Shown: positions 26,753 to 55,655 of the stretch, piece after piece
Position numbering within the stretch: position 1 is the stretch's first letter
How the letters are laid out: the number at the start of each line of letters is the position of its first letter
The notes under the pieces: model-generated
The model's input: only the letters and a program-made list of their open reading frames with translations
The model's database searches: none
What the model was told of the DNA's origin: nothing
Virus record (IMG/VR): IMGVR_UViG_3300005096_000097
Span: 1 to 59,270 of that record
DNA length: 59,270 nt
Strand: one strand, 5' to 3'
From: a virus
Position numbers and translations under genes: made by a program

Positions 26753-26753
26753 A

Positions 26754-27050
26754 ATGAATCTTAATAAAATCGAAGTGGTCTACGTTGTAATTGACGATGA
26801 TACCCGGCAGCGGCGTGGGCTGTATGTGGGTGGTGAGCTAGAAGCTGTTGGTAAGGATGCTGCCCGACAGAGTATGACTTTGTTATGGGAGTTGGGGTGG
26901 ACCGGTCCCTATGAGCAGGTGTTTCTGACTGGTATTTACTCGTATGAGTTTTGTGAAGATTATGCTGACATGCCTGACACTTTGGATGAAGTTCTTTTAT
27001 GTGGTGGTGTCGAGAATGGTTTTCGTCAATTCCCTGCGGAGCTTGATTAA
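26754..27050 (+). CDS. 'LYVDGEL-GWxGxY' family protein, tandem copy 3
   Basis: A 98-residue protein, MNLNKIEVVYVVIDDDTRQR, LYVGGELEAVG, LWELGWTGPYEQVFLTGI, MPDTLDEVL, FPAELD. Third in the row, one base after the stop of copy 2. Function unknown. Confidence 0.65.
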   Translation: MNLNKIEVVYVVIDDDTRQRRGLYVGGELEAVGKDAARQSMTLLWELGWTGPYEQVFLTGIYSYEFCEDYADMPDTLDEVLLCGGVENGFRQFPAELD

Positions 27051-27440: not shown

Positions 27441-28091
27441 GTGGGAAGAGGCGAGACTTACAAGTATGATTACAGCCCCGGGACGAAGTACGGGAAGCTC
27501 ACGATTGTGAAGTGGGAGAGGCCCTATGTCATTTGCGACTGTGATTGTGGAAACAAGGGGAGTACGCACCACTCACGAGACGTTAGTAACGGGAATACCA
27601 AATCATGTGGTTGCTTAGCAAGTGGAGCTGGTGCAAGTAACTTCAACCATCGACATGGGCAGTGTCGGACACGGGTGTATCGTATCTGGTGTGCCATGAA
27701 GTCCCGGTGCTATAATGAGAAGGTGCCACACTACAAACATTATGGTGGTCGCGGGATCACAATTTGTGAGGAGTGGCTGGGTCCCAAGTGTTTTGAAGTG
27801 TTCCAATCATGGGCTCTCGCCAATGGGTACAAGAAGCATTTGTCAATTGACAGAATTGACAATGACAAAGGGTATAGTCCAGCAAATTGCCGGTGGGCTA
27901 CCCAGAAAGAACAGACAAACAACCAACGCCCAATGCGGAGCACAAACACCAGCGGGTTCAAAGGTGTGTATGCTACCAAGTCGAGTACAAGCCCATGGAA
28001 CTCCCGGTACAAGGGTAAGTACATTGGCTGCTACAAAACAGCAGAAGACGCAAACGAAGCCTATCTCCTTTATTTAGAAAGTCTTGAATAA
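27441..28091 (+). CDS. HNH endonuclease with AP2 DNA-binding domain
   Basis: A 216-residue protein, GTG start. It has Cys-rich N-terminal knuckles (CDCDCGNKGS, KSCGCL), an HNH-like core (YGGRGITICEEWLG, LSIDRIDNDKGYSPANCRWA, about 90-155) and a C-terminal AP2 domain (SGFKGVYATKSSTSPWNSRY... IGCYKTAEDANEAYL). This is the layout of phage free-standing homing endonucleases. It sits between the paralog array and the NAMPT-like gene, with paralogs on both sides, as expected for an inserted selfish gene. Confidence 0.8.
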   Translation: MGRGETYKYDYSPGTKYGKLTIVKWERPYVICDCDCGNKGSTHHSRDVSNGNTKSCGCLASGAGASNFNHRHGQCRTRVYRIWCAMKSRCYNEKVPHYKHYGGRGITICEEWLGPKCFEVFQSWALANGYKKHLSIDRIDNDKGYSPANCRWATQKEQTNNQRPMRSTNTSGFKGVYATKSSTSPWNSRYKGKYIGCYKTAEDANEAYLLYLESLE

Positions 28092-29560
28092 TGCCTAACT
28101 TACTTGTAAGCACTGACGACTATAAAGTTCAGCATAAAGAAATGATGGTTCCGGGGACCAACAAGTCCTACTCATATTTGGAATGTCGAGGGTCCCGCAC
28201 AGATGGTTTAGATTACTCTGTGTTCTTTGGGCTTCAATACTACCTGAAAGAGTACTTTAGTCGGGCAGTCACCCACTCAGATGTGGACCATTTAGAACGA
28301 ATCCTTAACCATGTCAATGGTCCTGGATCTGTGAATATGCAGAAGTTCCGCGACTTAGCTGACCTCGGCTATCTGCCCTTGAGAATTAAGGCAGTCCCTG
28401 AAGGGACCGTCATGCCTCTTAAACATGTTATGCTCACTTTAACAAACACTGATCCTGACTTTGGCTGGTTCGTCCAGTATGTTGAGTCACTCCTCCTTAA
28501 AGTGTGGTTACCTATTACAGTCGCCGCAAACTCCTACAGATTCTTTAGAATGTTCTCAGGACTTGCTCAAAAGTCAGCCGGACACACGGACTTTGTCCCG
28601 TTCCAGATGCACGACTTTGGGTATCGAGGTACAGACAGCGATGAAGCGGCCCGGATTGCTGGTGCTGCCCACTTGCTATCCTTTACGGGCACCGACAATC
28701 TCCCCGCTGTCGATTTTCTCATGCAGCATTATGATGCAGGGAATTGTGACCGACCCATTGGACTCTCGGTCCCGGCGAGTGAACACTCGGTCATGTGTAC
28801 ACACAGCACAGACAACGACGATAAATCTGCTATCAAACATCTCCTGGACAATTTCCCGTCAGGTATAATATCCGTAGTCAGCGACACCTATGATTTATTT
28901 AAGGCAGTTGGTCAATACTACAACATTGATTTCCACGACCGAATCATGGAACGTGATGGCAAGTGGGTCGTTCGACCGGACAGTGGTGACCCGCCAAACA
29001 TTATCTGTGGTGATCCTGCTGGCGAGACAATTGAAGAGCAAATGGGTGTTGTTCGCCTCCTTGAGAAGGGATTTGGCTCCACAACCAACGAACTTGGCTA
29101 CAAAACCCTCGATCCTCATGTCGGTTGCCTCTATGGGGACGCTATCTTCTACGAACGCGCCCAGCAGATTCTCAGCCGCTTGATGGGTATGGGCTACAGC
29201 ACCGAGAACATCCTGTTCGGAAGCGGAGGCTTACTACTTAACAACTGGTCCCGCGACACACTGGGCATGGCACTCAAAGCCACGTACTGTGAAGTCAACG
29301 GTGAACCAAGACCCGTCGAGAAGAAGCCGAAGACGGACACGACTAAGACGTCCAAGAAGGGTCTACTCAGATTGGAACGATACCAAACCGAACTGGGGAC
29401 TCAATACAAGACCCTCCAGAATGTCACCCCAGAACAGGAACAGGGCGGCATCTTGGAGACTGTCTTCGAGGACGGTAAGATTCTACGATTCCAGAACCTC
29501 GATCAGGTTCGAGACACACTTGAGTCTAACGAGAACAAGCCAGCGGGGTTACTAGTCTAA
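28091..29560 (+). CDS. nadV: Nicotinamide phosphoribosyltransferase-like protein (NadV; candidate NARP1 Namat)
   Basis: A 489-residue NAMPT-family protein. Visible are DDYKVQHKEMMVPGT near the start, QMHDFGYRGTDSDEAA (about 174-189), SVPASEHSVM (about 228-237), VVRPDSGDPPN (about 291-301) and FGSGGLLL (about 377-384), all classical NAMPT landmarks. The family joins nicotinamide to PRPP; in NARP1 the Namat version joins it to ADP-ribose pyrophosphate, giving NAD+ directly. The upstream Prs-like gene supplies the partner. Motifs do not distinguish the two versions. Confidence 0.85.
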   Translation: MPNLLVSTDDYKVQHKEMMVPGTNKSYSYLECRGSRTDGLDYSVFFGLQYYLKEYFSRAVTHSDVDHLERILNHVNGPGSVNMQKFRDLADLGYLPLRIKAVPEGTVMPLKHVMLTLTNTDPDFGWFVQYVESLLLKVWLPITVAANSYRFFRMFSGLAQKSAGHTDFVPFQMHDFGYRGTDSDEAARIAGAAHLLSFTGTDNLPAVDFLMQHYDAGNCDRPIGLSVPASEHSVMCTHSTDNDDKSAIKHLLDNFPSGIISVVSDTYDLFKAVGQYYNIDFHDRIMERDGKWVVRPDSGDPPNIICGDPAGETIEEQMGVVRLLEKGFGSTTNELGYKTLDPHVGCLYGDAIFYERAQQILSRLMGMGYSTENILFGSGGLLLNNWSRDTLGMALKATYCEVNGEPRPVEKKPKTDTTKTSKKGLLRLERYQTELGTQYKTLQNVTPEQEQGGILETVFEDGKILRFQNLDQVRDTLESNENKPAGLLV

Positions 29561-29561
29561 G

Positions 29562-29888
29562 ATGATAAATCTTGATTCAATCGAAGTTACTTGGGTACTG
29601 ATTGACCCCTACAATCAATCACGGGAGGCTTTCTACATCAATGGGGAGCTGGTATTGACCGACCATGTGGACTACCAGGCTGAGGGGTACATGTGCGGGT
29701 GGTTAGACTGCCTGTATTACCAGGGTTGGACTGGGGAGTATACGGTCCGAACCCTTGAGAAACCACCTGAGAGCAAGTATGCGCATGGCAACTGGGACTT
29801 CCCCGAGAAATTAGACGACTTGCGTCTCCCCGGCGTGGATTTCACGAATATGCTATATGATAGAGACATAAACGGACCCACTCGATAA
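29562..29888 (+). CDS. 'GWxGxY' family protein, copy beyond the NAMPT gene
   Basis: A 108-residue protein beginning MINLDSIEVTWVLIDPYNQS, with FYINGELVLT and LYYQGWTGEYTVRTL. The MxNLDxIxV opening matches tandem copies 1-3 located 2.8-3.4 kb upstream, so it belongs to the same family. The endonuclease and NAMPT genes lie between copies. Function unknown. Confidence 0.55.
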   Translation: MINLDSIEVTWVLIDPYNQSREAFYINGELVLTDHVDYQAEGYMCGWLDCLYYQGWTGEYTVRTLEKPPESKYAHGNWDFPEKLDDLRLPGVDFTNMLYDRDINGPTR

Positions 29889-32395: not shown

Positions 32396-32686
32396 ATGAG
32401 TAACTTATTTGCTTTCATGATGCCAGGCGCTCCAGAGTTGTTGATTATTGGCATTATCGCCGTCCTACTCTTTGGCAGCAGGCTTCCTAAGCTTGCATAC
32501 TCCATGGGTAATAGCTACACTCAGTTCAAACAGGGTTTGTCAGAGACGACTTCCGAAATCTCATCCTGTAAGGATAAGATTAACGCGGGACGTGATGCCG
32601 TCCAGGCGTCAATTGAAAAGGACATCCAGAAGGTTAAGGCCTCGGTTGACAAGGGCGTCCAGTCCGTCAAGGACTCGGTCAAATAA
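32396..32686 (+). CDS. tatA: Phage-encoded TatA/TatE-like translocase subunit
   Basis: A 96-residue protein, start MSNLFAFMM with GGAGA upstream. 'PGAPELLIIGIIAVLLFGSR' is the short TatA membrane helix (about 10-27) with the FG hinge, then LPKLAYSMGNSYTQFKQGL, the amphipathic helix. The charged helical tail (about 50-96) repeats Lys/Val/Ser (KVKASVDKGVQSVKDSVK). TatA rings form the pore of the twin-arginine system. A TatA gene in a phage that also encodes an RR-signal protease is unusual and suggests a dedicated export route. Confidence 0.85.
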   Translation: MSNLFAFMMPGAPELLIIGIIAVLLFGSRLPKLAYSMGNSYTQFKQGLSETTSEISSCKDKINAGRDAVQASIEKDIQKVKASVDKGVQSVKDSVK

Positions 32687-40487: not shown

Positions 40488-40958
40488 ATGTACAAGCTAA
40501 TTGGTGAACAAACGAGGGACATTCATCTGGGGGTCCATGACTACCAGGTGTTTACCGTAGATTGTCAGGACATGGACGGGGGCGACCTCGACTCTATGCT
40601 CCACCCGGATGGTCTACTTCACACCTCTATGAATGGACTACCTTTCGATTTGCTGGACCTACGTCCCAAGGAAGGTAACCGCTATACCGCAACTGGGTTG
40701 GTTCGGAAAGAGGCCGTCATTCGACCAATGCCCACGTTTGAAGCTGACGAGCGTGAGCAAATAGACCTCCATGGGCACATGTACCAAACGTTCCATGTGT
40801 ACATTGACCCGTCGGACTATGGGACCTCGGACTTCACACCGGGGAAGGTAATTGGCGTGAACAACCAGTTTTATGTTCTGCACGCGAAATTGCGAATACC
40901 TTATCGGAATTCACCAAAGGCAAATATGCACATACTCATTATGGAGGGACCATGTTAA
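40488..40958 (+). CDS. Two-copy 'YxVF-ING' beta-domain protein
   Basis: A 156-residue protein. Copy 1: RDIHLGVHDYQVFTVDCQD (about 11-29) with HTSMNGLPFDLLDLRP. Copy 2: EQIDLHGHMYQTFHVYIDP (about 86-104) with TPGKVIGVNNQFYVLHAKL. AAAGG lies about 10 bases upstream. Function unknown. Confidence 0.55.
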   Translation: MYKLIGEQTRDIHLGVHDYQVFTVDCQDMDGGDLDSMLHPDGLLHTSMNGLPFDLLDLRPKEGNRYTATGLVRKEAVIRPMPTFEADEREQIDLHGHMYQTFHVYIDPSDYGTSDFTPGKVIGVNNQFYVLHAKLRIPYRNSPKANMHILIMEGPC

Positions 40959-41167
40959 GATTCATTGGTACTCAGTGCCCAGCCATTCGGCTAAAGAACA
41001 AATGCTACCCCGTGTTCTGGGTGGACGTGAAAAACAACACGAAGCCTATTGAACAGAACACAGTGGTTCAGATCAACGGTCGTAAATACACCTACCTGGA
41101 CTGTGTCGTGGATAAAGGTCCAAACTCTTACTACTTTTTCATTGTGGAGGAGTTATGCTCAGAATAG
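40952..41167 (+). CDS. Single-copy 'YxVF-ING' beta-domain protein
   Basis: A 71-residue protein, the cleanest single domain: PAIRLKNKCYPVFWVDVKN, then EQNTVVQINGRKYTYLDCVV, ending YYFFIVEEL. It is nearly superimposable on both halves of the next gene. Overlaps its neighbours by 7 and 13 bases. Function unknown. Confidence 0.6.
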   Translation: MLRFIGTQCPAIRLKNKCYPVFWVDVKNNTKPIEQNTVVQINGRKYTYLDCVVDKGPNSYYFFIVEELCSE

Positions 41168-41631
41168 AATTAGATGGATTGCCCGACTTTGTGCTGGACG
41201 GTAGGGCGTACCCTACATTCAAGATTTTCACGGAGGGTGAGAGGGCCAGGGATGCAGACCCGAACTCTGAAGCTGTTGAGGCACTCAGTGGTGGCCAGAC
41301 AATCCAAATCAATGGAGGGCTCTACGAGTTCCTGTTGTACGAACACTGGATAACAACCATCAGTCCTTATGAGCGATGGTACCGTGTGTTTACGCGGAGA
41401 CTAAATGTCAATTCTGGTGAACTCCCTGCGTTCGTTGGCGACTCCACGGTTGGGATACGCATCCAAGAGGTGAACTACCCCGTGTTCAAGATCCGTCCGA
41501 ACTCAATTAGTGATGAACCCCTGGCACCTGGGTCGCTGATTAAAATCAATGGCGTTCCCTATGTTTACGTGGATTGCATTGTTCCGGATCAGGAACTGGA
41601 TCGGTACCAATTCATCGTGGAGGAACTATGA
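41155..41631 (+). CDS. Two-copy 'YxVF-ING' beta-domain protein
   Basis: A 158-residue protein. Copy 1: DFVLDGRAYPTFKIFTEGE and GGQTIQINGGLYEFLLYE. Copy 2: VGIRIQEVNYPVFKIRPNS and PGSLIKINGVPYVYVDCIV, ending YQFIVEEL. Copy 2 is close to the single-domain gene before it, showing how units are fused. Function unknown. Confidence 0.6.
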   Translation: MLRIELDGLPDFVLDGRAYPTFKIFTEGERARDADPNSEAVEALSGGQTIQINGGLYEFLLYEHWITTISPYERWYRVFTRRLNVNSGELPAFVGDSTVGIRIQEVNYPVFKIRPNSISDEPLAPGSLIKINGVPYVYVDCIVPDQELDRYQFIVEEL

Positions 41632-42613: not shown

Positions 42614-43048
42614 ATGGCAAACTTCAATAGCCGAGGGGGCGGTATGCAGGTTGGCAATAACCGCGTGTTCCATATCCCTATTAAGTATGTGGAACACAAC
42701 CTCTTGAGGCTAGAGGCAGGGGATGATGTTACGGTAGACTTCGCGGCCTACCAGGTTATGCACCCCCTCCCCAGAGCAAGAGTCTCAGGTCGTGGGTTGA
42801 GCACTATTGTCTGTCAGGGTATGGACCCACCCCCGGCACACGCAGAAGTTATATGTGTGATGCTGGGCTTTGGGTTAGTATGGGCGCTCTATCTCAGTAA
42901 CGTCCTACCGGTGTATGCCCTTGGGGTTGCTGGTGTGGTGGTTGCCAGATGGTGTGTGTGGTACCTAACTCGCCATAGCATTATAGATCAATTACCAATG
43001 GACGCAGATTTCCTTTATTTGAGTGTGAGGCCGCATAATGCCACTTGA
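42614..43048 (+). CDS. Beta-domain fused to two membrane helices
   Basis: A 144-residue protein. The N-terminal array-like domain (RVFHIPIKYVEHNLLRLEAG, DDVTVDFAAYQVMHPLP) is followed by helices at about 77-97 and 99-117, and the end MDADFLYLSVRP. The next gene repeats the order, so the two are paralogs. GGAAGG lies 8 bases upstream of the ATG. It links the soluble beta-domain family to the membrane. Function unknown. Confidence 0.55.
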   Translation: MANFNSRGGGMQVGNNRVFHIPIKYVEHNLLRLEAGDDVTVDFAAYQVMHPLPRARVSGRGLSTIVCQGMDPPPAHAEVICVMLGFGLVWALYLSNVLPVYALGVAGVVVARWCVWYLTRHSIIDQLPMDADFLYLSVRPHNAT

Positions 43049-43673
43049 CCCGAACCATGAACACATCGACCTAATCATGGGGCTCGTCACCGATGATTAT
43101 GATGACGCCAGGGCTCGTGGTGATATGCTCCGTGCGCACTACCTCATGGAGAATGCCCGACGTGATGGCTTCCTAATTGACTATGTCCCTGGTGGAAAGA
43201 CGACTTGGTCCCACACAAGCGGGAAGACAGCCGGTGACCCCCATGACTGGGATTCAAATTTCCAGGGTGATGAGGAGTTTGTAACGAAGCAGTTCCGTAT
43301 CTTCCGTGTGAAGACCCATCGGAAAATGAAACGCATTATGGACCTAAAGGAAGGTTCCCGTGTACGGGTTAACTTTGAGCAAGTGAAGGTAGGTAATCCC
43401 CTCCCCTCTATGTTGCTGAGTAACGAGGACGTGCGATGGTATGCCCAAGCCGTTCAGGACCGAACAAACATAATCCTCCGTGTGTACATCCCTACGTTCA
43501 CGATAGCTCTAGTTTGGTGGTTAGCGTTTGGCAGTTGGTTCACCTACGTTGTAATGGGTACAAGTGCCTTGTGGATATTTATGACCACCAAAGGCTGGGG
43601 GATGAGTAAGCCTCCAAACGTTAGGCTACCTGGTGATACTGAGTACGTTTACTTTGTAACGGAGAATGACTGA
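43038..43673 (+). CDS. CysRS-tail-like helix plus beta-domain plus membrane helices
   Basis: A 211-residue protein. The N-terminal part (DDARARGDMLRAHYLMENAR, RDGFLIDYVPGGKTTW) resembles the short helical tail of cysteinyl-tRNA synthetases. Then FRIFRVKTHRKMKRIMDLKE, GSRVRVNFEQVKVGNPLP (array domain), two helices (about 150-185), and the end PGDTEYVYFVTEND. It parallels the preceding gene with an extra N-terminal module. Function unknown. Confidence 0.55.
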   Translation: MPLDPNHEHIDLIMGLVTDDYDDARARGDMLRAHYLMENARRDGFLIDYVPGGKTTWSHTSGKTAGDPHDWDSNFQGDEEFVTKQFRIFRVKTHRKMKRIMDLKEGSRVRVNFEQVKVGNPLPSMLLSNEDVRWYAQAVQDRTNIILRVYIPTFTIALVWWLAFGSWFTYVVMGTSALWIFMTTKGWGMSKPPNVRLPGDTEYVYFVTEND

Positions 43674-44126: not shown

Positions 44127-44402
44127 ATGATGCTTATGTTGAATGTGGCGAGTGCCTTGGCAGTACTGTCAATCCTCGGGAGCCTACTTTACCGTTTCAC
44201 CCGTGAGTGCTTTGAGGTTGATGAACTCCAATTCCTTGGACCCGTCGCGATTATCCTCTGGCTACTGGGAGGCTTCCTCCTAGGTGTCCTGATGACACAG
44301 CATGGGGCATTCGGATCCATTTTCGCCTGGGTGGGTTTCGTCCCGTGGTTGGGGTGCCCCATTTACCTGATTACCAAAACTAGGGAGACCCCTAATGTCT
44401 AG
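44127..44402 (+). CDS. Three-helix membrane protein
   Basis: A 91-residue protein. GGGAG lies 9 bases before ATGATG. Helices at about 6-25, 38-58 and 63-82. First of an uninterrupted run of membrane genes to 47085. Function unknown. Confidence 0.5.
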   Translation: MMLMLNVASALAVLSILGSLLYRFTRECFEVDELQFLGPVAIILWLLGGFLLGVLMTQHGAFGSIFAWVGFVPWLGCPIYLITKTRETPNV

Positions 44403-44598
44403 TATGATACCTGCCCTCACGGTTCTGCTCATCTTTAGCTTCTGGCGGAACATTGTCTGGGAGATTCGGGCGGGTCGTGATGACCCTACTCTCTGTGGCG
44501 CCTCAGCTTCTGATAAGCATGCTTATGCGTGGCAGAAGGTAGCATTTATTGGCTTTTACATTACTACATTCATCTGTTTCTTAGAGGCATGGAAATGA
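44395..44598 (+). CDS. Two-helix membrane protein
   Basis: A 67-residue protein starting 8 bases inside the previous gene. Helices at about 3-22 and 46-64, with a charged loop (RAGRDDPTLCGASASDKHAY) between. Function unknown. Confidence 0.5.
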   Translation: MSSMIPALTVLLIFSFWRNIVWEIRAGRDDPTLCGASASDKHAYAWQKVAFIGFYITTFICFLEAWK

Positions 44599-44792
44599 TT
44601 TGGTTCTTCGCGACACTCCTCAGTCTGCTGATGGTGCCTTTTATTGTGGGTGCTGGCTGGTTTGCTTACCAAGCCCTGGACTGCGAACGCTGGAAAGACG
44701 CAAGACTTCACGTTGGGGGTGTCGGCATTTGCGCAAGTGGCGTCTTCTTCTTCAGTGTCATGCTCTTACTTATAGGATACCTCCAATGTTAA
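44595..44792 (+). CDS. Two-helix membrane protein
   Basis: A 65-residue protein, start MIWFFATLLSLLMVPFIVGA with GAGG 7 bases upstream (an ATG at 44589 is an alternative). Second helix about 42-62 (GICASGVFFFSVMLLLIGYL). ATGA junction. Function unknown. Confidence 0.5.
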   Translation: MIWFFATLLSLLMVPFIVGAGWFAYQALDCERWKDARLHVGGVGICASGVFFFSVMLLLIGYLQC

Positions 44793-45043
44793 CTCCATGT
44801 CTTTGGGTGTGGTTCTCCGCAAGCATCCTCATTTGGGCAGGTTGTATGTACCGCTGGCGATGCCTGAACGACTCTAGTGACTTCAATGTGCTCATGCCGG
44901 TATTGGGCTGCATTTCCTCCTTAGTTTGCTTATCCACCATGGTGTACCATGTAGACAGCATGGCAACTGGGGTGATTGGCTTTGTAGCGACTATAGCATG
45001 GCTTGCTTGTGCCGGTACCTTATTCCTAGGAGACCCCGAATGA
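44786..45043 (+). CDS. Three-helix membrane protein, 'VWMFF' family, diverged
   Basis: An 85-residue protein: MLTPCLWVWFSASILIWAGC, helix at about 38-56, and VIGFVATIAWLACAGTLFLG. Same three-helix order as the four genes after it, with the final 'iw.a...' helix altered. Function unknown. Confidence 0.5.
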   Translation: MLTPCLWVWFSASILIWAGCMYRWRCLNDSSDFNVLMPVLGCISSLVCLSTMVYHVDSMATGVIGFVATIAWLACAGTLFLGDPE

Positions 45044-45303
45044 TTGCTTGTACAATTCTGTGGTTCTTAACTTCCGTACTCGTCTGTGTCTGCCTGGATA
45101 AGAAGATGAGAGCACTACAGCACCCCCTGCGAGACGATTATGTGTGCTACCGGGCACTAACCTGGGTGACGTCCCTGGTCGCCCTATCACTGCTCTTCGT
45201 ACAAACCGAAGGGACTTACTTCACGGGGGTTGTCTCAGCCACGGCTGGGTTGTGGGTTGCCGGCTCAGTGTGGATCTTTTACTTTAATCAAGAGGTGGAG
45301 TGA
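45040..45303 (+). CDS. 'VWMFF' family membrane protein, copy 2
   Basis: An 87-residue protein, MIACTILWFLTSVLVCVCLD KK..., ALTWVTSLVALSLLFV, and TAGLWVAGSVWIFYFNQEVE. GGAG-type site 8 bases upstream. The closing motif 'W.a.sVWiF.' identifies the family. Function unknown. Confidence 0.55.
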   Translation: MIACTILWFLTSVLVCVCLDKKMRALQHPLRDDYVCYRALTWVTSLVALSLLFVQTEGTYFTGVVSATAGLWVAGSVWIFYFNQEVE

Positions 45304-45599
45304 TGATTGCTTGTTTGGTTTTCGGCTATGTAGTTAGTCTGGTTATTTGTGCCCTAGCACATCAGAAGCTTAAGCAGATTCAAGGCCAACGTGGACATAT
45401 GGATCACCGCGAGCGGGAGATAGCTGAGTACATGCAAGGTTGGCGTGCCTTTGGATGGGTTTCCTCCATTGCACTAACCTTCCTTGGTCTAGCCCTCGCA
45501 AGTGGGTGGGGTTTCCTGCTTATGGCCCCTGTCGCCGGTATCTGGATTGCTGCCACAGTGTGGATGTTCTTCATTGACACAGTGGAGAACAATCGATGA
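45303..45599 (+). CDS. 'VWMFF' family membrane protein, copy 3
   Basis: A 98-residue protein, MIACLVFGYVVSLVICALAH, AFGWVSSIALTFLGLALASG, VAGIWIAATVWMFFIDTV. Start ATG at 45303 with GGAG upstream; a GTG at 45300 is possible. Function unknown. Confidence 0.6.
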   Translation: MIACLVFGYVVSLVICALAHQKLKQIQGQRGHMDHREREIAEYMQGWRAFGWVSSIALTFLGLALASGWGFLLMAPVAGIWIAATVWMFFIDTVENNR

Positions 45600-45928
45600 T
45601 AGGCTGCCTGGTTTTCGGATTTATTGTCTGTGTGGTTCTGTGTGGTTGCTGCCACCAAAAGTTGCTCCACTTAAAAACACTACCCGCCCCACTAAACGAG
45701 ATATACAACCCTGCGTGTTACCCAACCCCTGACCCAAACCAATACCGGGACAGTGCGATTATGTGCATGGAGATATTTCGAGGGGTAACTTGGGGCCTCA
45801 CGGTTGCTCTATTCCTTATCGCTTTTACCCATGCCAACACCTGGCAGACTATAGTTTTGGCTCCGGTCATGGCGGTCTGGTTGGCAGGGACAGTTTGGAT
45901 GTTCTTTATCAATGGGAGTTCGACGTAA
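45596..45928 (+). CDS. 'VWMFF' family membrane protein, copy 4
   Basis: A 110-residue protein, MIGCLVFGFIVCVVLCGCCH, IFRGVTWGLTVALFLIAF, VMAVWLAGTVWMFFINGSST. The N-terminus is close to that of copy 3. Loop extended by a Pro-rich stretch (CYPTPDPNQY). Function unknown. Confidence 0.6.
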   Translation: MIGCLVFGFIVCVVLCGCCHQKLLHLKTLPAPLNEIYNPACYPTPDPNQYRDSAIMCMEIFRGVTWGLTVALFLIAFTHANTWQTIVLAPVMAVWLAGTVWMFFINGSST

Positions 45929-46215
45929 TGCTTGTACTGTTTCTGTGGTTGACAACCACCTTCATGTTGTGTACCGGTTTCCATTTCAGAGCGGGTAGCC
46001 ATGAGAACAAAGATGTGGCGGAGGGGTTCATGATTGCACGTGGGGCGGCTTGGGTGGCAACACTTGGGTTGGTTTCATTTATGTGTGCAGTTAAACCAGA
46101 GACCAATGTATCCGTAGTACCCGTATTGGTGGCATTACCCATCGCGATGTTGTGGTTCGGGTGGTCAGTGTGGATGTTTTTCCTTGACAAGAGGGTGCAG
46201 AGATGGGATACTTGA
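45928..46215 (+). CDS. 'VWMFF' family membrane protein, copy 5
   Basis: A 95-residue protein, MLVLFLWLTTTFMLCTGFHF, IARGAAWVATLGLVSFM, AMLWFGWSVWMFFLDKRVQR. TAATG junction with copy 4. Function unknown. Confidence 0.6.
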   Translation: MLVLFLWLTTTFMLCTGFHFRAGSHENKDVAEGFMIARGAAWVATLGLVSFMCAVKPETNVSVVPVLVALPIAMLWFGWSVWMFFLDKRVQRWDT

Positions 46216-46484
46216 TAGTGTTGCTGTTTTTGGCAATGTGTGGGACACTAGCGGCGATCATTGTGATCGTTATATCTGAGTACCAGTCCCGCCGGGGTTA
46301 CCTCTCTGAGTGGGCGGTAGCCCTAATCGTAGCACTGACAGTTGTGTCCCTATTACTAGCTGGGCAGATAGGCGTCCTGAGTGCAACAACTGCGACTGTG
46401 CGTGGGATGTTGCAACCAGGTGTTGAGTTTTATGAGGGTGGTAACCCTCTTGAAGAAACACAGATTACTGGAGTTAAACAATGA
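46203..46484 (+). CDS. Two-helix membrane protein
   Basis: A 93-residue protein. Helices at about 3-25 and 37-58, then a soluble acidic C-terminal tail (about 65-93, GVEFYEGGNPLEETQITG). Starts 13 bases inside the previous gene. Function unknown. Confidence 0.5.
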   Translation: MGYLIVLLFLAMCGTLAAIIVIVISEYQSRRGYLSEWAVALIVALTVVSLLLAGQIGVLSATTATVRGMLQPGVEFYEGGNPLEETQITGVKQ

Positions 46485-46657
46485 TTTATGAGCTAATGAT
46501 GTTGCTGGCGTTTCTGACTGGTTGTTTCTGCCTGTACAAGTTTACCAGGTGGACTGACGCCTGGGTTATCTGGTTGGTAGCAGCGGGAGTTTCATGGGGT
46601 GTTGGATTGACGACCTTTGCTTTCTGGATGCTTGAGGGTATCAATGCGTTGATTTAA
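46481..46657 (+). CDS. Two-helix membrane protein (58 aa)
   Basis: Sequence MIYELMMLLAFLTGCFCLYK, then WVIWLVAAGVSWGVGLTTFA. ATGA overlap with the previous gene and TAATG with the next. Too short for routine gene finders but well placed in the chain. Function unknown. Confidence 0.5.
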   Translation: MIYELMMLLAFLTGCFCLYKFTRWTDAWVIWLVAAGVSWGVGLTTFAFWMLEGINALI

Positions 46658-46833
46658 TGAATGTGTTACTGTTCTGGGCGTTTGTGATGTGCTTCGTGAC
46701 AAGCTTGGCTTTGGATTTCTATGGTCTCCGCTGCCATTTTGGCACCGAGACAGGGCGTCGACTTGACAAAGTGTCAGCAACGCTAAAACTAGTCGGTCTT
46801 GCCTGTATCATCGCAAAATTTATCACCACATAG
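46657..46833 (+). CDS. Two-helix membrane protein (58 aa)
   Basis: Sequence MNVLLFWAFVMCFVTSLALD, FYGLRCHFGTETGRRLDKVS, then LKLVGLACIIAKFITT. Pattern 'MN.Ll....m....l....G.......T......v......lGl....' is shared with the next gene, so the pair are paralogs. Function unknown. Confidence 0.5.
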   Translation: MNVLLFWAFVMCFVTSLALDFYGLRCHFGTETGRRLDKVSATLKLVGLACIIAKFITT

Positions 46834-46842
46834 GGGGTATCG

Positions 46843-47085
46843 ATGAATCTTCTGATTGGAATTTGCCTGATGTTCTGGTGTATCCTAAACGTGTATGGCG
46901 TGAAGATGGTCGTGTATGAGTTCACGGACATCCTGTCTGACAGAGCGGGTAGTTACCTCACCACACGTATTCGGGTTTTAGGCGTCATTTTCGGATCATT
47001 CACTTTAGCGATTTCAGTTGCCGTCTTTGGATTTTCTATTGCAGCTTTCCGCGATGGGGTCTGCCCTATGGAGTACCTGAGATGA
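46843..47085 (+). CDS. Two-helix membrane protein
   Basis: An 80-residue protein, MNLLIGICLMFWCILNVYGV, a soluble loop with FTDILSDRAGSYLTTRIRV, then VIFGSFTLAISVAVFGFSIA. Related to the preceding 58-residue protein. Function unknown. Confidence 0.5.
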   Translation: MNLLIGICLMFWCILNVYGVKMVVYEFTDILSDRAGSYLTTRIRVLGVIFGSFTLAISVAVFGFSIAAFRDGVCPMEYLR

Positions 47086-47603
47086 AATTCCACACAATTG
47101 TTACTGTGACGCCCAAGTCAGACAAAACCGCGAACCCATTTGGGGACGACGCAACTGTTTATCAGTTTGTGACGGACGACCCACTCACCCTGGAGCTGGC
47201 AACACACTTTCTGAGGGCTAAGGGGGCGCCACTGCGAAACCGGACTGTAACTGTCAACGGGGTCCCGCCTCCCCAGGAGGTAGCCGTACATGCTCAATCT
47301 GCGGTCTTATGCAACCGTGACACTGGGACGCTGTACCTTGCCCGGTACGTGAATGGTGTGGTTGATTTCGTCACCCCAGTCGACTGGGTGTGGGCAGGGA
47401 GTACACCTCTCAGGGATATTCTGAAACAAATCCTGGCTGACTACGAAGGTGGCGTTGCAAACCAGATGTACTCGGACCTCGACCCTGATGTCCTGGAAAC
47501 TGTTGCCCTCTATGACGAGGACCAGGGTCTCCGGGACATGCGGCGGAACACAGGGGTCCAAGAAATGTGGTCGATGGAATCCCGAAGGTCAGCACCATGT
47601 TGA
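47082..47603 (+). CDS. Hypothetical soluble protein
   Basis: A 173-residue protein amid membrane genes. Segments TLELATHFLRAKGAPLRNRT, VTVNGVPPPQEVAVHAQ (weak array-domain core 'v.vNG') and acidic DYEGGVANQMYSDLDPDVLE. ATGA overlap at start. Function unknown. Confidence 0.5.
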   Translation: MKFHTIVTVTPKSDKTANPFGDDATVYQFVTDDPLTLELATHFLRAKGAPLRNRTVTVNGVPPPQEVAVHAQSAVLCNRDTGTLYLARYVNGVVDFVTPVDWVWAGSTPLRDILKQILADYEGGVANQMYSDLDPDVLETVALYDEDQGLRDMRRNTGVQEMWSMESRRSAPC

Positions 47604-47794
47604 TATTTATATTCATCCTTTGCATTGCATCAATACTGTGCTTACTTGCACCCCTGTGGGCTTGGTTATTCAGTCGAGCGGAATCATGGACACAGGATGC
47701 TGAGAATGTGAAAAGTAATGTCATTATGTCTCAGATGGCAGGTAGTCTTTTGCTTATTTTCATATTTCTATTCGTTGGGATGTGGCTTCAATGA
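47597..47794 (+). CDS. Two-helix membrane protein
   Basis: A 65-residue protein, start MLIFIFILCIASILCLLAPL. Helices at about 1-22 and 45-63 (AGSLLLIFIFLFVGMWL), with a polar loop between. Function unknown. Confidence 0.5.
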   Translation: MLIFIFILCIASILCLLAPLWAWLFSRAESWTQDAENVKSNVIMSQMAGSLLLIFIFLFVGMWLQ

Positions 47795-47970
47795 CCCTCG
47801 TACATTTACTCGCTGTGGCAGCATTCATTATCGCGGGCTGCATTACGTCAGCTCGATTGGATTGGACGCCCTACCACACTAAGATGGCGGACCAGGGGAA
47901 ATGCTGGATTGTTGGCCTCACAGCTTACTTGACCATTCTCGCTTTAGGATCCCTCTACCATGCCCTCTGA
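47791..47970 (+). CDS. Two-helix membrane protein (59 aa)
   Basis: Sequence MTLVHLLAVAAFIIAGCITS, then KCWIVGLTAYLTILALGSLY. ATGA overlap with the preceding gene. Function unknown. Confidence 0.5.
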   Translation: MTLVHLLAVAAFIIAGCITSARLDWTPYHTKMADQGKCWIVGLTAYLTILALGSLYHAL

Positions 47971-48169
47971 TGTACATGTTGTGTTTCAGGTCATTTACCT
48001 GATTGCCGGGATGATTGCCCTACATGCTGGGGCTGTGGCATTAGTGTGCAAGGTATTTGAGCCACGCTGGTTCATGGGCTGTGCAAGGGTGTGCATAGCT
48101 GCTGTGGCAGTGATGGCTTTGAACGGGCTGGTCGCTGGCGTGTCTACACTGGTGAGGTACGGGTTATGA
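47960..48169 (+). CDS. Two-helix membrane protein
   Basis: A 69-residue protein with helices at about 7-29 (VFQVIYLIAGMIALHAGAVA) and 40-60 (CARVCIAAVAVMALNGLVAG). Overlaps both neighbours. Function unknown. Confidence 0.5.
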   Translation: MPSDVHVVFQVIYLIAGMIALHAGAVALVCKVFEPRWFMGCARVCIAAVAVMALNGLVAGVSTLVRYGL

Positions 48170-48411
48170 GTAAAGACGAATTCACTGGCTTGGTCCATCT
48201 GAAGAACATGCGTGACATTGGCAAGTTCGCGGATACTCAGTGGCAGGTGTTTCGAGGATTGATTGCTGCCCATGACTGGGTGGACATCGAGCTACGGCGT
48301 AACATCCAAATTAACAAACATGTGTACAATGTGAAAGATATTCTGACGACCCCCTTCACATTGGGTAAAGCGGCCATGGGATTTGTGATAGTTGGGGATC
48401 CGGTCTACTAA
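48166..48411 (+). CDS. Short beta-domain protein, 'GKFADT' family
   Basis: An 81-residue protein: LKNMRDIGKFADTQWQVFRG, then NIQINKHVYNVKDILTTPF and FVIVGDPVY. 'iGkFADt...v.RG' and the 'v.iN...y.v' core recur in the three genes at 49774-50435. ATGA overlap. Function unknown. Confidence 0.55.
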   Translation: MSKDEFTGLVHLKNMRDIGKFADTQWQVFRGLIAAHDWVDIELRRNIQINKHVYNVKDILTTPFTLGKAAMGFVIVGDPVY

Positions 48412-48456
48412 TTTCAGTTCAGCGGATGGCTAAACGTGGGTATCAAAGAAGTGGTA

Positions 48457-48477
48457 AACAGGTCTTGAGAACCTGTT
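48457..48477 (+). terminator. Small hairpin after the 48166 gene
   Basis: AACAGGT/ACCTGTT (7 bp, 7-base loop) followed by ACAGACTTGC, with no U-run. A weak terminator or processing site at best. Confidence 0.3.
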
Positions 48478-48522
48478 ACAGACTTGCTTAGGACAAGAGA
48501 TATTATTGGTATTCGTGCTTAA

Positions 48523-48603
48523 ATGGGGCGTTTTATGCTCGGAATAATCTTTGGCTTACTGTTATTCTTCCTTTTACTGATGACGGGACCCTATCGTGAT
48601 TGA
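48523..48603 (+). CDS. Tiny single-helix membrane protein (26 aa)
   Basis: Sequence MGRFMLGIIFGLLLFFLLLM then TGPYRD. It overlaps the next gene's GTG start by 8 bases. Its strong hydrophobicity and coupling support expression. Confidence 0.4.
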   Translation: MGRFMLGIIFGLLLFFLLLMTGPYRD

Positions 48604-48844
48604 ACTAACGGGCGTAACCATCACTGGCTACACACTCGCAATGTCCTGCACGTTGCTGATGACTATTGGTTGTTTGGCTGCTGGGTTCTGGGTGTATAAC
48701 GTGGCAGTGATACTCAGTGGCTATGACGCGGATGCCTACGCAAAATACTGGAGCCACGCCGTGGTTCTGTTCCAATCGGCAGGTATCTGGGGTGGGTGTG
48801 CCCTGACAATTTGGGTACTGTCCTGGTTTACTGGCAGTCACTGA
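48596..48844 (+). CDS. Two-helix membrane protein
   Basis: An 82-residue protein, GTG start. Helices at about 12-38 (AMSCTLLMTIGCLAAGFWVY) and 55-77 (VVLFQSAGIWGGCALTIWVL). Function unknown. The 137 bases after it hold no intact gene. Confidence 0.5.
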   Translation: MIELTGVTITGYTLAMSCTLLMTIGCLAAGFWVYNVAVILSGYDADAYAKYWSHAVVLFQSAGIWGGCALTIWVLSWFTGSH

Positions 48845-48981
48845 ACGTCACAAATAGGCCACCCACCACTTAATGTGGAAAACCAGAGGCGAAATAGCAA
48901 AGATGTATGGACGTCTCGGCAAGCCATATTAGGATGGATACATGATGAACACTTTATTACAAGACAAACCCGTGGCGTTTT

Positions 48982-49065
48982 GTGTTGTTAAGTGGGTGTG
49001 ACAATGTCACGGGACTCTTTAAGTTGGCGGTGTCGCTGATTATTCCGGTGGTTTTTGCAGTAAGG
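48982..49065 (+). pseudogene. Decayed C-terminal piece of a small membrane gene
   Basis: One frame reads GCDNVTGLFKLAVSLIIPVV FAVRC. It aligns with the end of the protein at 49455 (YCDNAGNLFKLAFVLNVSVW) and, less well, the one at 49073 (DASHMFTLAMVLLLGSL). The upstream part of the gene is missing, so this is probably a remnant of a fourth tandem copy. Confidence 0.5.
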
Positions 49066-49072
49066 TGTGTAT

Positions 49073-49282
49073 ATGGACTCAGCACTCGTAGTAATGAATC
49101 TGTTATTTGGTGGGGCCTTAGCTGCCCTGACCATTGGCTGGGTTTGGCTGATAGTCGCGTATTTTCGTGACGCTGAAACAGAAGCAGACCTCATCATCGA
49201 ATGGAAGAAGGATGCCTCACATATGTTTACGCTGGCAATGGTCCTTCTGCTCGGATCTTTGATAGCGAGGTGTTTATCATGA
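49073..49282 (+). CDS. 'GWVWLI' membrane protein, tandem copy 1
   Basis: A 69-residue protein: MDSALVVMNLLFGGALAALT, IGWVWLIVAYFRDAET, then DASHMFTLAMVLLLGSLIAR. The order of helix 1, 'GWvWlI.a..R', acidic loop and helix 2 is shared with the next two genes. Function unknown. Confidence 0.55.
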   Translation: MDSALVVMNLLFGGALAALTIGWVWLIVAYFRDAETEADLIIEWKKDASHMFTLAMVLLLGSLIARCLS

Positions 49283-49458
49283 CTTTATTACTCGTATGGT
49301 CAGCCCCCTCAGTGGGTTGTTATTTGGTGGGGTGGTGTTACTTCATAGCAGCCCTGCGTGACCCTTGCCAGAGTGACCAACTCTGTGGGACTGCCCTGAA
49401 GTGGTTTGTGGCCACTTGGATACTGCTCATACCCAGATGGTTAGGGTGGATTGCATGA
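49279..49458 (+). CDS. 'GWVWLI' membrane protein, tandem copy 2
   Basis: A 59-residue protein: MTLLLVWSAPSVGCYLVGWC, YFIAALRDPCQSDQLC, then FVATWILLIPRWLGW. ATGA overlaps with both neighbours. Function unknown. Confidence 0.55.
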   Translation: MTLLLVWSAPSVGCYLVGWCYFIAALRDPCQSDQLCGTALKWFVATWILLIPRWLGWIA

Positions 49459-49652
49459 TAATGAATCTATTACTGATGTTCCTCCCGGTCTTTGGTTGCG
49501 TCATTGCCGGGTGGGTGTGGCTCATTGCAGCAATACTTCGTAGGCATATCCCAGAACTCCGCGAGGAGTATTGCGACAACGCTGGGAATCTGTTCAAGTT
49601 GGCATTTGTGTTGAATGTCTCAGTATGGTTGGTGCAATTACTATATTGGTAG
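49455..49652 (+). CDS. 'GWVWLI' membrane protein, tandem copy 3
   Basis: A 65-residue protein: MIMNLLLMFLPVFGCVIAGW, VWLIAAILRRHIPELREEYC, DNAGNLFKLAFVLNVSVWLV. Closest to the decayed copy at 48982. Function unknown. Confidence 0.55.
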   Translation: MIMNLLLMFLPVFGCVIAGWVWLIAAILRRHIPELREEYCDNAGNLFKLAFVLNVSVWLVQLLYW

Positions 49653-49773
49653 TTTGCTTAGGGGGCCAGATCCACTGGTCTCTGAGTATCCTGACCTCAG
49701 GTCATGCAGGAGTCAGGAGCTGATGACTCACCGGTTTAACATTTCTCAGTTTCTTTGTAGTGGAGTACAGGGT

Positions 49774-50001
49774 ATGATTGATTTGGGAGATATGGAAGAC
49801 CTTGGCAAATTCGCCGACACAGACTTGGACATGTACCGTGGTGTCCTGTCCCAGACTGAAATGCGCAACTTGATACCCGGTAACACACTTGTCACAGTCA
49901 ATGGGAAACGAGGTGTGCTTGTCGAACTGATTCCCTTGGAACAAAGTGGTTTGTATGACGGAATTGTGTTCGTCAAATCTCGGGAGGTGATCGATGGTTG
50001 A
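49774..50001 (+). CDS. 'GKFADT' beta-domain protein, tandem copy 1
   Basis: A 75-residue protein: MIDLGDMEDLGKFADTDLDM, YRGVLSQTEMRN, GNTLVTVNGKRGVLVELIPL, IVFVKSREVIDG. It ends with the sequence that also starts the next copy (CGGGAGGTGATCGATGGTTGA), so the stop/start overlap itself is duplicated. Function unknown. Confidence 0.6.
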   Translation: MIDLGDMEDLGKFADTDLDMYRGVLSQTEMRNLIPGNTLVTVNGKRGVLVELIPLEQSGLYDGIVFVKSREVIDG

Positions 50002-50221
50002 ACTCGAAAGTATGGAGTTGGTTCAGACGTTTCGGAATCAAACGGGATGTGCAGTGTTCCGGGGCATGGTACCACAAGGAGCTGTACTGGGTCTGTCACA
50101 TGACGTGATCTGTAAAATAAACGGCGTGAAATGGACTCTCGTCGAGGTCATACCCCTGGCTCACGAGGACACCTTTGAATCGCTTGTAATTGTCAAACCC
50201 CGGGAGGTGATCGATGGTTGA
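49994..50221 (+). CDS. 'GKFADT' beta-domain protein, tandem copy 2
   Basis: A 75-residue protein: MVELESMELVQTFRNQTGCA, VFRGMVPQGAVLG, CKINGVKWTLVEVIPLA, LVIVKPREVIDG. Same length as copy 1, same junction. The KINGVxW core links this family to the larger beta-domain array. Function unknown. Confidence 0.6.
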   Translation: MVELESMELVQTFRNQTGCAVFRGMVPQGAVLGLSHDVICKINGVKWTLVEVIPLAHEDTFESLVIVKPREVIDG

Positions 50222-50435
50222 TCTTGCTGAGTTGGATTACATTGGTGACTTCGGAAACTACGAGGGGTGGTCCACGTTTCGAGGACAGATCTGGCAGGCG
50301 GACGCGAAGGATTTGAAACCGAGCTGCCTTGTTAAAATCAATGGGAAGGAACAAGTCCTTGTCGCGTTGATTCCCCTGGGTGGTGGTCCGGTGTTTGAGG
50401 CAATTGTGGTGACCCGATTCGGGTGGTGTTACTAG
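50214..50435 (+). CDS. 'GKFADT' beta-domain protein, tandem copy 3
   Basis: A 73-residue protein: MVDLAELDYIGDFGNYEGWS, TFRGQIWQADAKDLK, CLVKINGKEQVLVALIPLG, AIVVTRFGW. It lacks the REVIDG ending and so closes the tandem run. Function unknown. Confidence 0.6.
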   Translation: MVDLAELDYIGDFGNYEGWSTFRGQIWQADAKDLKPSCLVKINGKEQVLVALIPLGGGPVFEAIVVTRFGWCY

Positions 50436-52689: not shown

Positions 52690-53700
52690 ATGGTGGAAGA
52701 AGAATCTTGGAGAGATGTGGTTGGGTTTGAGAAACTGTACCATGTCTCAGACTGGGGACGGGTAAGGTCACCCGATCGTCAGATTCGGGCGACGTGTGGT
52801 AGCCAACGATTTTGTGCTGGTCGGATACTTACCCCTCACAGGACGGGCAAGTCCCGGATAAATGTGGTCCGCCTGTCTCGGGAGGGGAAGCTGTACATCC
52901 TCGACACCGAGGACCTGGTGCTGGAAGCTTTCGTAGGGCCTCGCCCGCCGGCTTGTATTGCTCACCACATCTCGGACGACCCGTATGATGTGCGGTTTGC
53001 CAACCTCGAATGGATGGTTGACCCCAACTATGCAGCGATACGATTGGCTCAGTTAGAGAAGGAGAGCCGGAAAGCCAAACGTGAGGCAACCCGACGTGAA
53101 GCAGCCCAACGGGACGCTGTCCGACTATCCGCAGCCCGACAAATTGCAACACTGCTTGGAGCCACTTCGTTCTCTGAGTCTAGATACCGGGAAGCCTGGG
53201 GTTGGGGAGCCTGTCAGGTTTTTAATTGGGGTACCCTACTTGCTGAATTGGAATATGGGGAGGTCCGGGAGCCCAAGAAGGATGCAGCCACGAAGTTGGT
53301 GAAGCCCAAGAAGCCCATAGCCACAAAGTTGGTGAAACCCAAGCAGGTCAAGCAGGTCAAGCAGGTCAAGCAGGTCAAGCAGGTCAAGCAGGTCAAGCAG
53401 GTCAAGCAGGTCAAGCAGGTCGCGCCGACCCCAGAACTGATAGCCAAACGGAAACGAATGGCTGTTGAGTACACACGGGAGTGGCGTGCCAACAAGAAGA
53501 AGGCAGCCGAACTACTCGCATCCGAACACTGGAGTGCTAAACTGGACGCAAAGTACACAGTGATGCGGGATGACGGGATCGAGTTTGATAATTACGCGGA
53601 GGCTGGTCGGGTTGCAGGCGCGACGCCGGCGGAGATCAGTGATGCGTGTGAAACTGGAGAGCTTCTTCTAGGGCACCAGTGGGCTCAGATAAGTGTGTAG
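52690..53700 (+). CDS. NUMOD4/HNH/NUMOD1-type endonuclease with KQV repeats
   Basis: A 336-residue protein, start MVEEESWRD. The N-terminal NUMOD4 motif (WRDVVGFEKLYHVSDWGRVR) precedes an HNH-like region (CIAHHISDDPYDVRFANLEW, about 92-111), a long charged helix, KQV repeats (about 216-243) and a C-terminal NUMOD1-like motif (DDGIEFDNYAEAGRVAGATP, about 294-313). This is the modular plan of phage homing endonucleases. It splits two close paralogs (52150 and 53737), as expected from insertion. The HNH seems to lack the usual third motif residue, so activity is uncertain. Confidence 0.7.
   Translation: MVEEESWRDVVGFEKLYHVSDWGRVRSPDRQIRATCGSQRFCAGRILTPHRTGKSRINVVRLSREGKLYILDTEDLVLEAFVGPRPPACIAHHISDDPYDVRFANLEWMVDPNYAAIRLAQLEKESRKAKREATRREAAQRDAVRLSAARQIATLLGATSFSESRYREAWGWGACQVFNWGTLLAELEYGEVREPKKDAATKLVKPKKPIATKLVKPKQVKQVKQVKQVKQVKQVKQVKQVKQVAPTPELIAKRKRMAVEYTREWRANKKKAAELLASEHWSAKLDAKYTVMRDDGIEFDNYAEAGRVAGATPAEISDACETGELLLGHQWAQISV
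53341..53421 (+). repeat. 9-bp tandem repeat encoding KQV
   Basis: Nine copies of AAGCAGGTC, almost perfect, giving a Lys-Gln-Val repeat inside the endonuclease gene. Confidence 0.95.
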
Positions 53701-54707: not shown

Positions 54708-54946
54708 TGGAATGGCTCAACAGAGTGGATGGTATGTGGTGGGGGTTTGGTATGGCCCTGATGTTCTGGGGTATCAACTCCGCCAGGCATTCAGTAGCAT
54801 GTATCATCAATACACGGAAGGGTTTACGGACCGAGGCTGACTTCAGTCTGGACCGCGCGGAGATATCCCTTTGCTATCTGATCGTGGGTGTTTTGATATC
54901 TCTTATCGTGTTTCAGCTTGTTGGGGGTACATTATTGCGTGGTTGA
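54707..54946 (+). CDS. Two-helix membrane protein
   Basis: A 79-residue protein. Helices at about 9-27 (GMWWGFGMALMFWGINSARH) and 54-74 (SLCYLIVGVLISLIVFQLVG). TGATG coupling to the previous gene. Function unknown. Confidence 0.5.
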   Translation: MEWLNRVDGMWWGFGMALMFWGINSARHSVACIINTRKGLRTEADFSLDRAEISLCYLIVGVLISLIVFQLVGGTLLRG

Positions 54947-55655
54947 AATCTGGAAGGACATCAAGGGTCACGAGGGTGCCTATCAGGTCAGTGATATGGG
55001 CCGCGTTCGTTCGCTGGCGCGGAGGGTGACTCGTAGTAATGGTTACCCCTATACGGTCAGGGCAAAGGTACTGAAGCCCTGCCCATCTTCAAGTGGCTAC
55101 TTAGCCGTTTGCCTACACAATGAGGGTGAAGACACAACGCAACCGGTAGCCTCCCTCGTGCTTACGGCATTTGTAGGCCCTCAACCATATGCAAAACATG
55201 CGTGTCACAAGTCATTAGGGAGACTGAACAACAGCCTGGGCAATCTATACTGGGGCGCCAGGGTGTCGACCGCATTAGGCAAACGGATCCACCCCGGGAA
55301 AGTTTATCTCCGACCGGTAGTGCGGAGTGATGGGGTTGAGTATGCCAGTGTTAGGCTGGCCGCCCAAGCAATGAAAGGGTCTGAGTCTGCCATTGGCAAC
55401 TGCTGTGCAGGTACGAGTAAGACCTCATATGGGTTTGGTTGGGAATATGCGGACGTAAAGGTCCTGCCCAAGAGGGGTACCAAGGGTCTCCGACCAGTTA
55501 TCCGGAGTGATGGGGTTCAATTTGAGAGTGTGGCCAGTGCCGGGCGGGCAGTTGGAGTGACTCCCGGCTGTATTGGCAGGGCCTGTACGAAACCTGAGAA
55601 CACCTCTGGTGGCTTCGGATGGAAATACGTGGACGCGGACGACTCAGAGAATTGA
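54939..55655 (+). CDS. NUMOD4/HNH-like/NUMOD1x2 endonuclease-like protein
   Basis: A 238-residue protein, GTG start with GGGGG upstream. NUMOD4 motif EIWKDIKGHEGAYQVSDMGR VRS, an HNH-like stretch HACHKSLGRLNNSLGNLYWG (about 85-105), then two NUMOD1 repeats (VVRSDGVEYASVRLAAQAMK and VIRSDGVQFESVASAGRAVG). The HNH has lost clear catalytic His residues; it could be a degenerate, DNA-binding-only relic. Last rightward gene before the repeat region. Confidence 0.65.
   Translation: MVEIWKDIKGHEGAYQVSDMGRVRSLARRVTRSNGYPYTVRAKVLKPCPSSSGYLAVCLHNEGEDTTQPVASLVLTAFVGPQPYAKHACHKSLGRLNNSLGNLYWGARVSTALGKRIHPGKVYLRPVVRSDGVEYASVRLAAQAMKGSESAIGNCCAGTSKTSYGFGWEYADVKVLPKRGTKGLRPVIRSDGVQFESVASAGRAVGVTPGCIGRACTKPENTSGGFGWKYVDADDSEN

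Follow-up and report, generated by a model that had tools for sequence, protein, structure and literature searches.

Why would a tailed phage carry some twenty small membrane proteins of one design in a single run of genes? The question is raised by positions 44,127–49,652 of the virus record IMGVR_UViG_3300005096_000097, which was analyzed over its entire length of 59,270 bases (hereafter the window) and may cover the virus itself only in part. That the phage is tailed is evident from its left end, whose minus strand encodes terminase, portal, scaffold, and major head proteins. Small membrane genes of phages are mostly unassigned, and in this run internal copies show which parts of the proteins are kept and which vary. 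The gene array is unusual and well supported. The reading favored here, to which we assign a probability of about 0.45, is that of a lineage-specific accessory region in which genes of hairpin proteins were duplicated and diverged, their products most likely being separate effectors at the host membrane, of the superinfection-exclusion or counter-defense type.

Gene Content and Coding Signal

Twenty-two curated genes, all on the plus strand, tile positions 44127–49652 (genes are named below by their first coordinate). Based on hydropathy (Kyte-Doolittle window, threshold 1.2–1.4), 20 of them encode membrane proteins of 26–110 amino acids (aa), with two or three predicted helices in 18 of the 20 (threshold 1.4). 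A hydropathy segment was scored in 21 of the 22 genes, that of 48166 belonging to a soluble beta-domain protein. Since 47082 (173 aa) and 48166 (81 aa) are soluble, the run is broken twice; a preliminary description had spoken of "over 15 consecutive" membrane proteins, whereas the longest strictly consecutive run is 12 (44127–46843). The genes and one gene remnant are as follows.

44127–44402, +, membrane protein, 91 aa, three predicted helices, predicted N-out hairpin type
44395–44598, +, membrane protein, 67 aa, two helices
44595–44792, +, membrane protein, 65 aa, two helices, 4-base overlap with the preceding gene
44786–45043, +, membrane protein, 85 aa, three helices, less certain VWMFF member with a link to 45040 alone
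45040–45303, +, VWMFF paralog, 87 aa
45303–45599, +, VWMFF paralog, 98 aa, three helices in an AlphaFold2 model
45596–45928, +, VWMFF paralog, 110 aa
45928–46215, +, VWMFF paralog, 95 aa, weak codon score
46203–46484, +, membrane protein, 93 aa, two helices
46481–46657, +, membrane protein, 58 aa, two helices, 4-base overlap
46657–46833, +, membrane protein, 58 aa, two helices, no detectable paralogy with 46843
46843–47085, +, membrane protein, 80 aa, two helices
47082–47603, +, soluble protein breaking the membrane run, no Pfam match
47597–47794, +, membrane protein, 65 aa, two helices
47791–47970, +, membrane protein, 59 aa, two helices, 4-base overlap
47960–48169, +, membrane protein, 69 aa, two helices
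48166–48411, +, soluble small beta-domain protein, related to 49723, 49994, 50214, and 40488–41631
48523–48603, +, single-helix open reading frame (ORF), 26 aa, weak coding support
48596–48844, +, membrane protein, 82 aa, GTG start, remote GWVWLI member
48945–49074, +, putative decayed GWVWLI copy lacking its middle part, with the N- and C-terminal fragments in different frames
49073–49282, +, GWVWLI paralog, 69 aa
49279–49458, +, GWVWLI paralog, 59 aa
49455–49652, +, GWVWLI paralog, 65 aa

The genes are real: their tiling exceeds chance by far, and codon usage supports their frames. Among the 21 junctions, 12 are overlaps of 4 bases or 1 base and six are overlaps of 7–13 bases, the remaining three being gaps of 9, 111, and 228 bases. 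The linkage by short overlaps described earlier is thus borne out, as 300 dinucleotide shuffles yielded a mean of 0.6 and a maximum of 4 junctions of the 4-base or 1-base kind, and the opposite strand contained none. ORF coverage was 0.94, as compared to 0.49 in the shuffles. Scored by a codon model whose training genes lay elsewhere, the annotated frame surpassed all five others in 21 of the 22 genes; the exception is 45928, for which one reverse frame scored higher by 0.6. The annotated frame of 49279 was the best one, yet its codon score was negative, and the 26-aa ORF 48523 is the weakest gene candidate. No promoters or terminators were detected above the level of shuffled sequence. An inverted repeat seen by eye at 48457–48477, in the 111-base gap before 48523, is a possible operator or structural element.

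The overlapping genes probably form a single operon with coupled translation. Tiling confined to one strand, and the 4-base or 1-base overlaps at 12 of the 21 junctions, also speak for an alternative that the preliminary description had offered, a multi-component membrane assembly; the proteins would be its subunits, with translational coupling setting a fixed ratio.

A Shared Hairpin Architecture

Irrespective of sequence, the cluster proteins have one architecture in common. Helix 1 lies at the N-terminus without a preceding lysine or arginine in 19 of the 20 proteins, and 17 of the 20 combine this feature with a basic first loop (at least two lysines or arginines, and not fewer than in the next loop) followed by one or two helices. 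Of 75 small proteins used for comparison, all with a predicted helix, 3 showed this arrangement (Fisher p = 5e-13); 60 of them came from control sequences and 15 from elsewhere in the window, the latter including 48166 and 50214, which are soluble and have a marginal segment. When gene-caller starts were used throughout, the architecture was present in 14 of 15 cluster proteins and 3 of 57 others; with single-helix proteins set aside, the counts were 14 of 15 versus 3 of 13 (p = 0.0003); this test dropped the controls from the related record G022, which are near-duplicates of those from G021, and proteins shorter than 40 aa, both of which had been kept in the former.

Basic loops of membrane proteins face the cytoplasm according to the positive-inside rule, and a basic first loop with no lysine or arginine before helix 1 therefore predicts an N-terminus outside and a cytoplasmic loop. 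About twenty helical-hairpin proteins would thereby enter the host inner membrane N-terminus out, with a basic loop of 9–40 residues in the cytoplasm. So uniform a topology type would suit the subunits of an assembly as well. The AlphaFold2 model of the VWMFF protein 45303 (mean pLDDT, the predicted local distance difference test, of 75) matched only generic helical bundles; its best Z of 12.3, to a designed protein followed by syntaxins, lies in a range that is uninformative for such bundles.

Two Tandem Families and a Putative Decayed Copy

Paralogy was assessed by blastp, by profiles compared with shuffled decoys, and by pairwise scores compared with block shuffles that keep the hydropathy pattern, the pairwise set comprising 24 proteins without 48523. 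Two tandem paralog sets are real, VWMFF with four firm members and GWVWLI with three plus 48596. The VWMFF proteins 45040, 45303, 45596, and 45928 are related with z-scores of 6.3–18.7 under the hydropathy-preserving null. The preliminary description had counted 44786 as a diverged fifth member; it is linked to 45040 alone (z = 5.1), and the profile does not separate it from decoys. The GWVWLI set of 49073, 49279, and 49455, likewise proposed earlier, was confirmed by way of 49455 (z = 6.9 and 8.1), the direct comparison of 49073 and 49279 giving a z of 0.5. It could be extended by 48596, which joined the set with a z of 6.5 and, in a separate comparison with 49455, had a z of 7.0 (a score reached by none of 2,000 shuffles). 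A third suggested set, the pair 46657/46843, was rejected (z = −0.2; 111 of 200 shuffles scored at least as high as observed), and a short DNA match between 46843 and 54707 found no support at the protein level (z = 1.9).

The gap before 49073 appears to hold a decayed GWVWLI copy, as two fragments in different frames match both ends of 49455 (z = 5.1 and 6.0); 2 and 1 of 2,000 shuffles reached these scores, which are optimistic because the fragments were picked by eye. At least two hairpin genes would have been duplicated in tandem several times and then diverged, one copy having since decayed. The ratio of nonsynonymous to synonymous change (pN/pS) was below 1 in the three membrane protein pairs tested (0.46 for 45303/45596, 0.67 for 45040/45303, and 0.71 for 49073/49455), which is weak evidence of purifying selection because synonymous change is high to saturated. 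Within the VWMFF set the first loop varies in length from 13 to 40 residues, while the C-terminal helix stays alike even at the DNA level. A variable loop beside a conserved helix suggests that the loop, if cytoplasmic, would determine the partner of each protein.

As sequence comparison shows no single family, either a common origin has been erased or the hairpin design has been selected repeatedly. Descent of all twenty genes from one hairpin ancestor, with divergence beyond sequence detection, would be compatible with an accessory effector region, and the shared architecture and the occurrence of two detectable families within the same run point in this direction. However, pairs between families were no closer than pairs with control hairpins (mean z of 0.22 versus 0.08, p = 0.07), and a profile comparison of the two families found nothing, so that a single ancestor is possible but doubtful.

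Occurrence in Related Phages

A search with the terminase TerL retrieved 25 related viral contigs, the nearest of which has a TerL of about 77% identity and is colinear over about 19 kb. No TerL relative was found in genome contigs, and the cultured-phage TerL proteins among the matches listed were 24–27% identical and came from phages of varied hosts. The gene-by-gene comparison covered the five longest of the 25 relatives (G003, G021, G009, G013, and G022). G003 (104,336 bases), the nearest long relative, is colinear with window positions 1–30.4 kb, interrupted by an extra stretch of the window at about 23–29.9 kb. Window genes starting beyond 31 kb, those of the membrane cluster included, had no matches in the five relatives (blastp with E up to 1e-3, tblastn with E up to 1e-2). 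The cluster sits beyond the point where homology to the nearest relative stops and is therefore located in lineage-specific sequence.

One gene caller was applied to the window and to eight other phage sequences (the five relatives, two parts of T4, and one of SPO1). Uninterrupted series of small membrane genes reached a length of 9 in the window and of 1–2 in the eight others, and the maximum within 22 genes was 17 versus at most 6. Eight scans of viral contigs were made, two with cluster membrane proteins (45303 and 49455), five with other genes, and one with TerL; scans of the contig collections reach close relatives only. The VWMFF protein 45303 had no credible match in viral contigs, genome contigs, or cultured phages (best phage E of 0.6), and the GWVWLI protein 49455 had none in viral contigs or phages. 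The soluble 47082, the neighboring 43038 and 43738, and the right-arm genes 34638 and 52150/53737 also lacked matches in viral contigs. A VWMFF profile hit none of the 25 TerL-relative records, which by itself shows little, as none of these records was known to contain a match. A search of PDB sequences gave no credible match for the proteins submitted to it, and no description of such an array was found in the open-licence literature.

These results bear on the assembly alternative. None of its putative subunits was found in the five relatives, even though one of these has a TerL of about 77% identity and a long colinear stretch; moreover, one copy has apparently decayed, and the same tandem-copy pattern extends to soluble genes over much of the right arm (see below). 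One multi-component assembly thus is quite improbable.

Candidate Functions and Known Counterparts

Under the favored reading, the proteins would most likely work separately at the host membrane, with duplication supplying variants whose variable cytoplasmic loops would set the partner. The preliminary description had also spoken of variant membrane-acting inhibitors. The variant part of this suggestion fits well with the diverged tandem families, the decayed copy, pN/pS values of 0.46–0.71, the differences in loop length, and the restriction to one lineage; that the proteins would inhibit anything is an inference. A counterpart in favor of an effector role is T4 Imm, annotated as conferring immunity to superinfection, which has 83 aa, two helices, and no lysine or arginine before helix 1.

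Several observations weigh against this reading. Most lysines and arginines of Imm follow helix 2, so its likeness to the cluster proteins is loose, and the topology proposed for the latter is deduced from charge bias alone. Overlapping genes would equally suit a fixed-ratio complex. No credible match was obtained for the 20 of 20 membrane proteins scanned against PHROGs or the 8 of 20 scanned against Pfam, and the best hit of 10 of 20 scanned against the bacterial defense library PADLOC (46203 to PycTM, E of 0.012) was not credible.

A more specific version would see in the cluster a hairpin repertoire, in which a common N-out scaffold carries loops diversified by tandem duplication and each variant, like an interchangeable adaptor, blocks a different membrane-bound host defense or the DNA entry of a rival phage; as a whole, this picture is rather unlikely. 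If the proteins are exclusion or counter-defense proteins, one operon would provide a ready panel for studying partner choice by hairpin loops, and an example of how a phage expands its membrane effectors through gene arrays.

A lysis-timing module of holins, antiholins, and their diverged copies would be another use for such proteins, since holins in general have a size and helix number that fit the cluster. However, no holin profile of PHROGs matched any of the 20 membrane proteins, no endolysin was recognized beside the cluster, and we know of no precedent for so many holin copies. According to one review, T4 Imm is reported to resemble a holin (PMC6832632), which can be counted for this explanation. 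All in all, a lysis module is very unlikely.

Accessory regions with small membrane proteins are known in phages, but the extent and uniformity seen here were not encountered in the comparison phages. The early non-essential regions of T4 (imm, ac, 52.1, and ndd.2 to ndd.6) likewise contain very small genes of one orientation in a row, with products predicted to lie in the membrane or envelope, but in the T4 parts at most two small membrane genes are consecutive and six occur within 22 genes (9 and 17 in the window), none of nine T4 proteins examined has the basic-loop hairpin as defined for the cluster, and no PHROG common to T4 and window proteins was found. SPO1, also a tailed phage, resembles the window in the dense packing of many small genes in its early region, some of which are annotated for host shutoff, but its longest run of small membrane genes is 1 in the 50 kb examined. 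P22 SieA is described (PMC10883804) as a small phage protein of the inner membrane, the presumed location of the cluster proteins too, which has three predicted helices and occurs in divergent sequence types; unlike the cluster, it is encoded by a single gene and has 162–164 aa.

Tandem Arrays and Homing-Type Endonucleases in the Right Arm

The right arm as a whole is rich in tandem paralogs, soluble genes included. In the window, 37 of 124 genes fall into 12 paralog clusters (E of 1e-3); at the same cutoff, such genes number 27 of 160 in G003, and 16 of 130, 13 of 59, 9 of 44, and 6 of 95 in the other four relatives. A soluble beta-domain of 70 residues occurs in eight copies (two in 40488 and one each in 40952, 41155, 48166, 49723, 49994, and 50214). 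Its AlphaFold2 model is all beta (mean pLDDT 86) and had no firm fold match, the best being pieces of phage baseplates and tails with Z up to 6.9, in an uninformative range. HNH-type endonucleases are encoded near tandem arrays at 27441, 52690, 54939, and 58223.

40488–41631, +, upstream copies of the soluble beta-domain: 40488 (twice), 40952, 41155
49723–50435, +, soluble beta-domain genes in a tandem row of three (49723, 49994, 50214), immediately following the membrane run
52690–53700, +, NUMOD4/HNH homing-type endonuclease between the paralogs 52150 and 53737 (53% identical)
54939–55655, +, NUMOD4/HNH homing-type endonuclease

In T6, the homing endonuclease SegB, a GIY-YIG enzyme, amplifies anti-defense loci (PMC13096335), and the authors leave open the same role for other endonucleases including the HNH type. 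The window resembles this case in its homing-type endonucleases beside tandem copies, 52690 even lying between two of them. Its enzymes, however, are of the HNH/NUMOD4 type, its copies are old (27–60% amino acid identity) rather than recent repeats, and no endonuclease gene lies inside the membrane run. Amplification by homing endonucleases may serve as a lead on the origin of the arrays, not as a test of it.

The same neighborhood raises the possibility that the cluster is mostly slack, the region being inflated by recombination around homing endonucleases and small hydrophobic ORFs persisting in it with little function. The endonucleases near the arrays, the T6 example, and the decayed copy are in keeping with this view. 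Against it speak the codon signal, which favors the annotated frame for 21 of the 22 genes, the pN/pS values below 1 between paralogs, the one architecture common to 17 of 20 proteins, and the lack of an endonuclease within 44–49.7 kb, and it must be considered unlikely.

Two related genes at 42614–43673 (plus strand; 42614 and 43038) give the visual impression of the soluble array domain into which a pair of helices has been inserted, and many more copies of the domain seemed discernible in 33.9–39.7 kb; profiles gave no support to either assignment. Two further soluble tandem families, with closest members 48–60% identical, are located at 25031–27050 and 29562–29888 (plus strand), with the HNH gene 27441 in this region. 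The right contig end (55877–59267) has dense tandem repeats of 9–109 bases and few genes, and the assembly may have stopped there.

Other genes with recognizable products include a TatA/Hcf106-like protein (32396–32686, plus strand; Pfam E of 6e-11) and, on the minus strand, a protein (10542–12101) that combines a Tat signal with Hint/intein-splicing segments and weakly matches a C39 peptidase; this second protein has relatives in three of the five related records. The plus strand further encodes a class 3 lipase (15907–16596), a trypsin-like protease (18231–19022), a protein with a weak SPFH/Band 7 match (20184–21536), a peptide deformylase (22516–23085), and a NadV-like nicotinamide phosphoribosyltransferase (28091–29560) recognized by both Pfam and PHROG.

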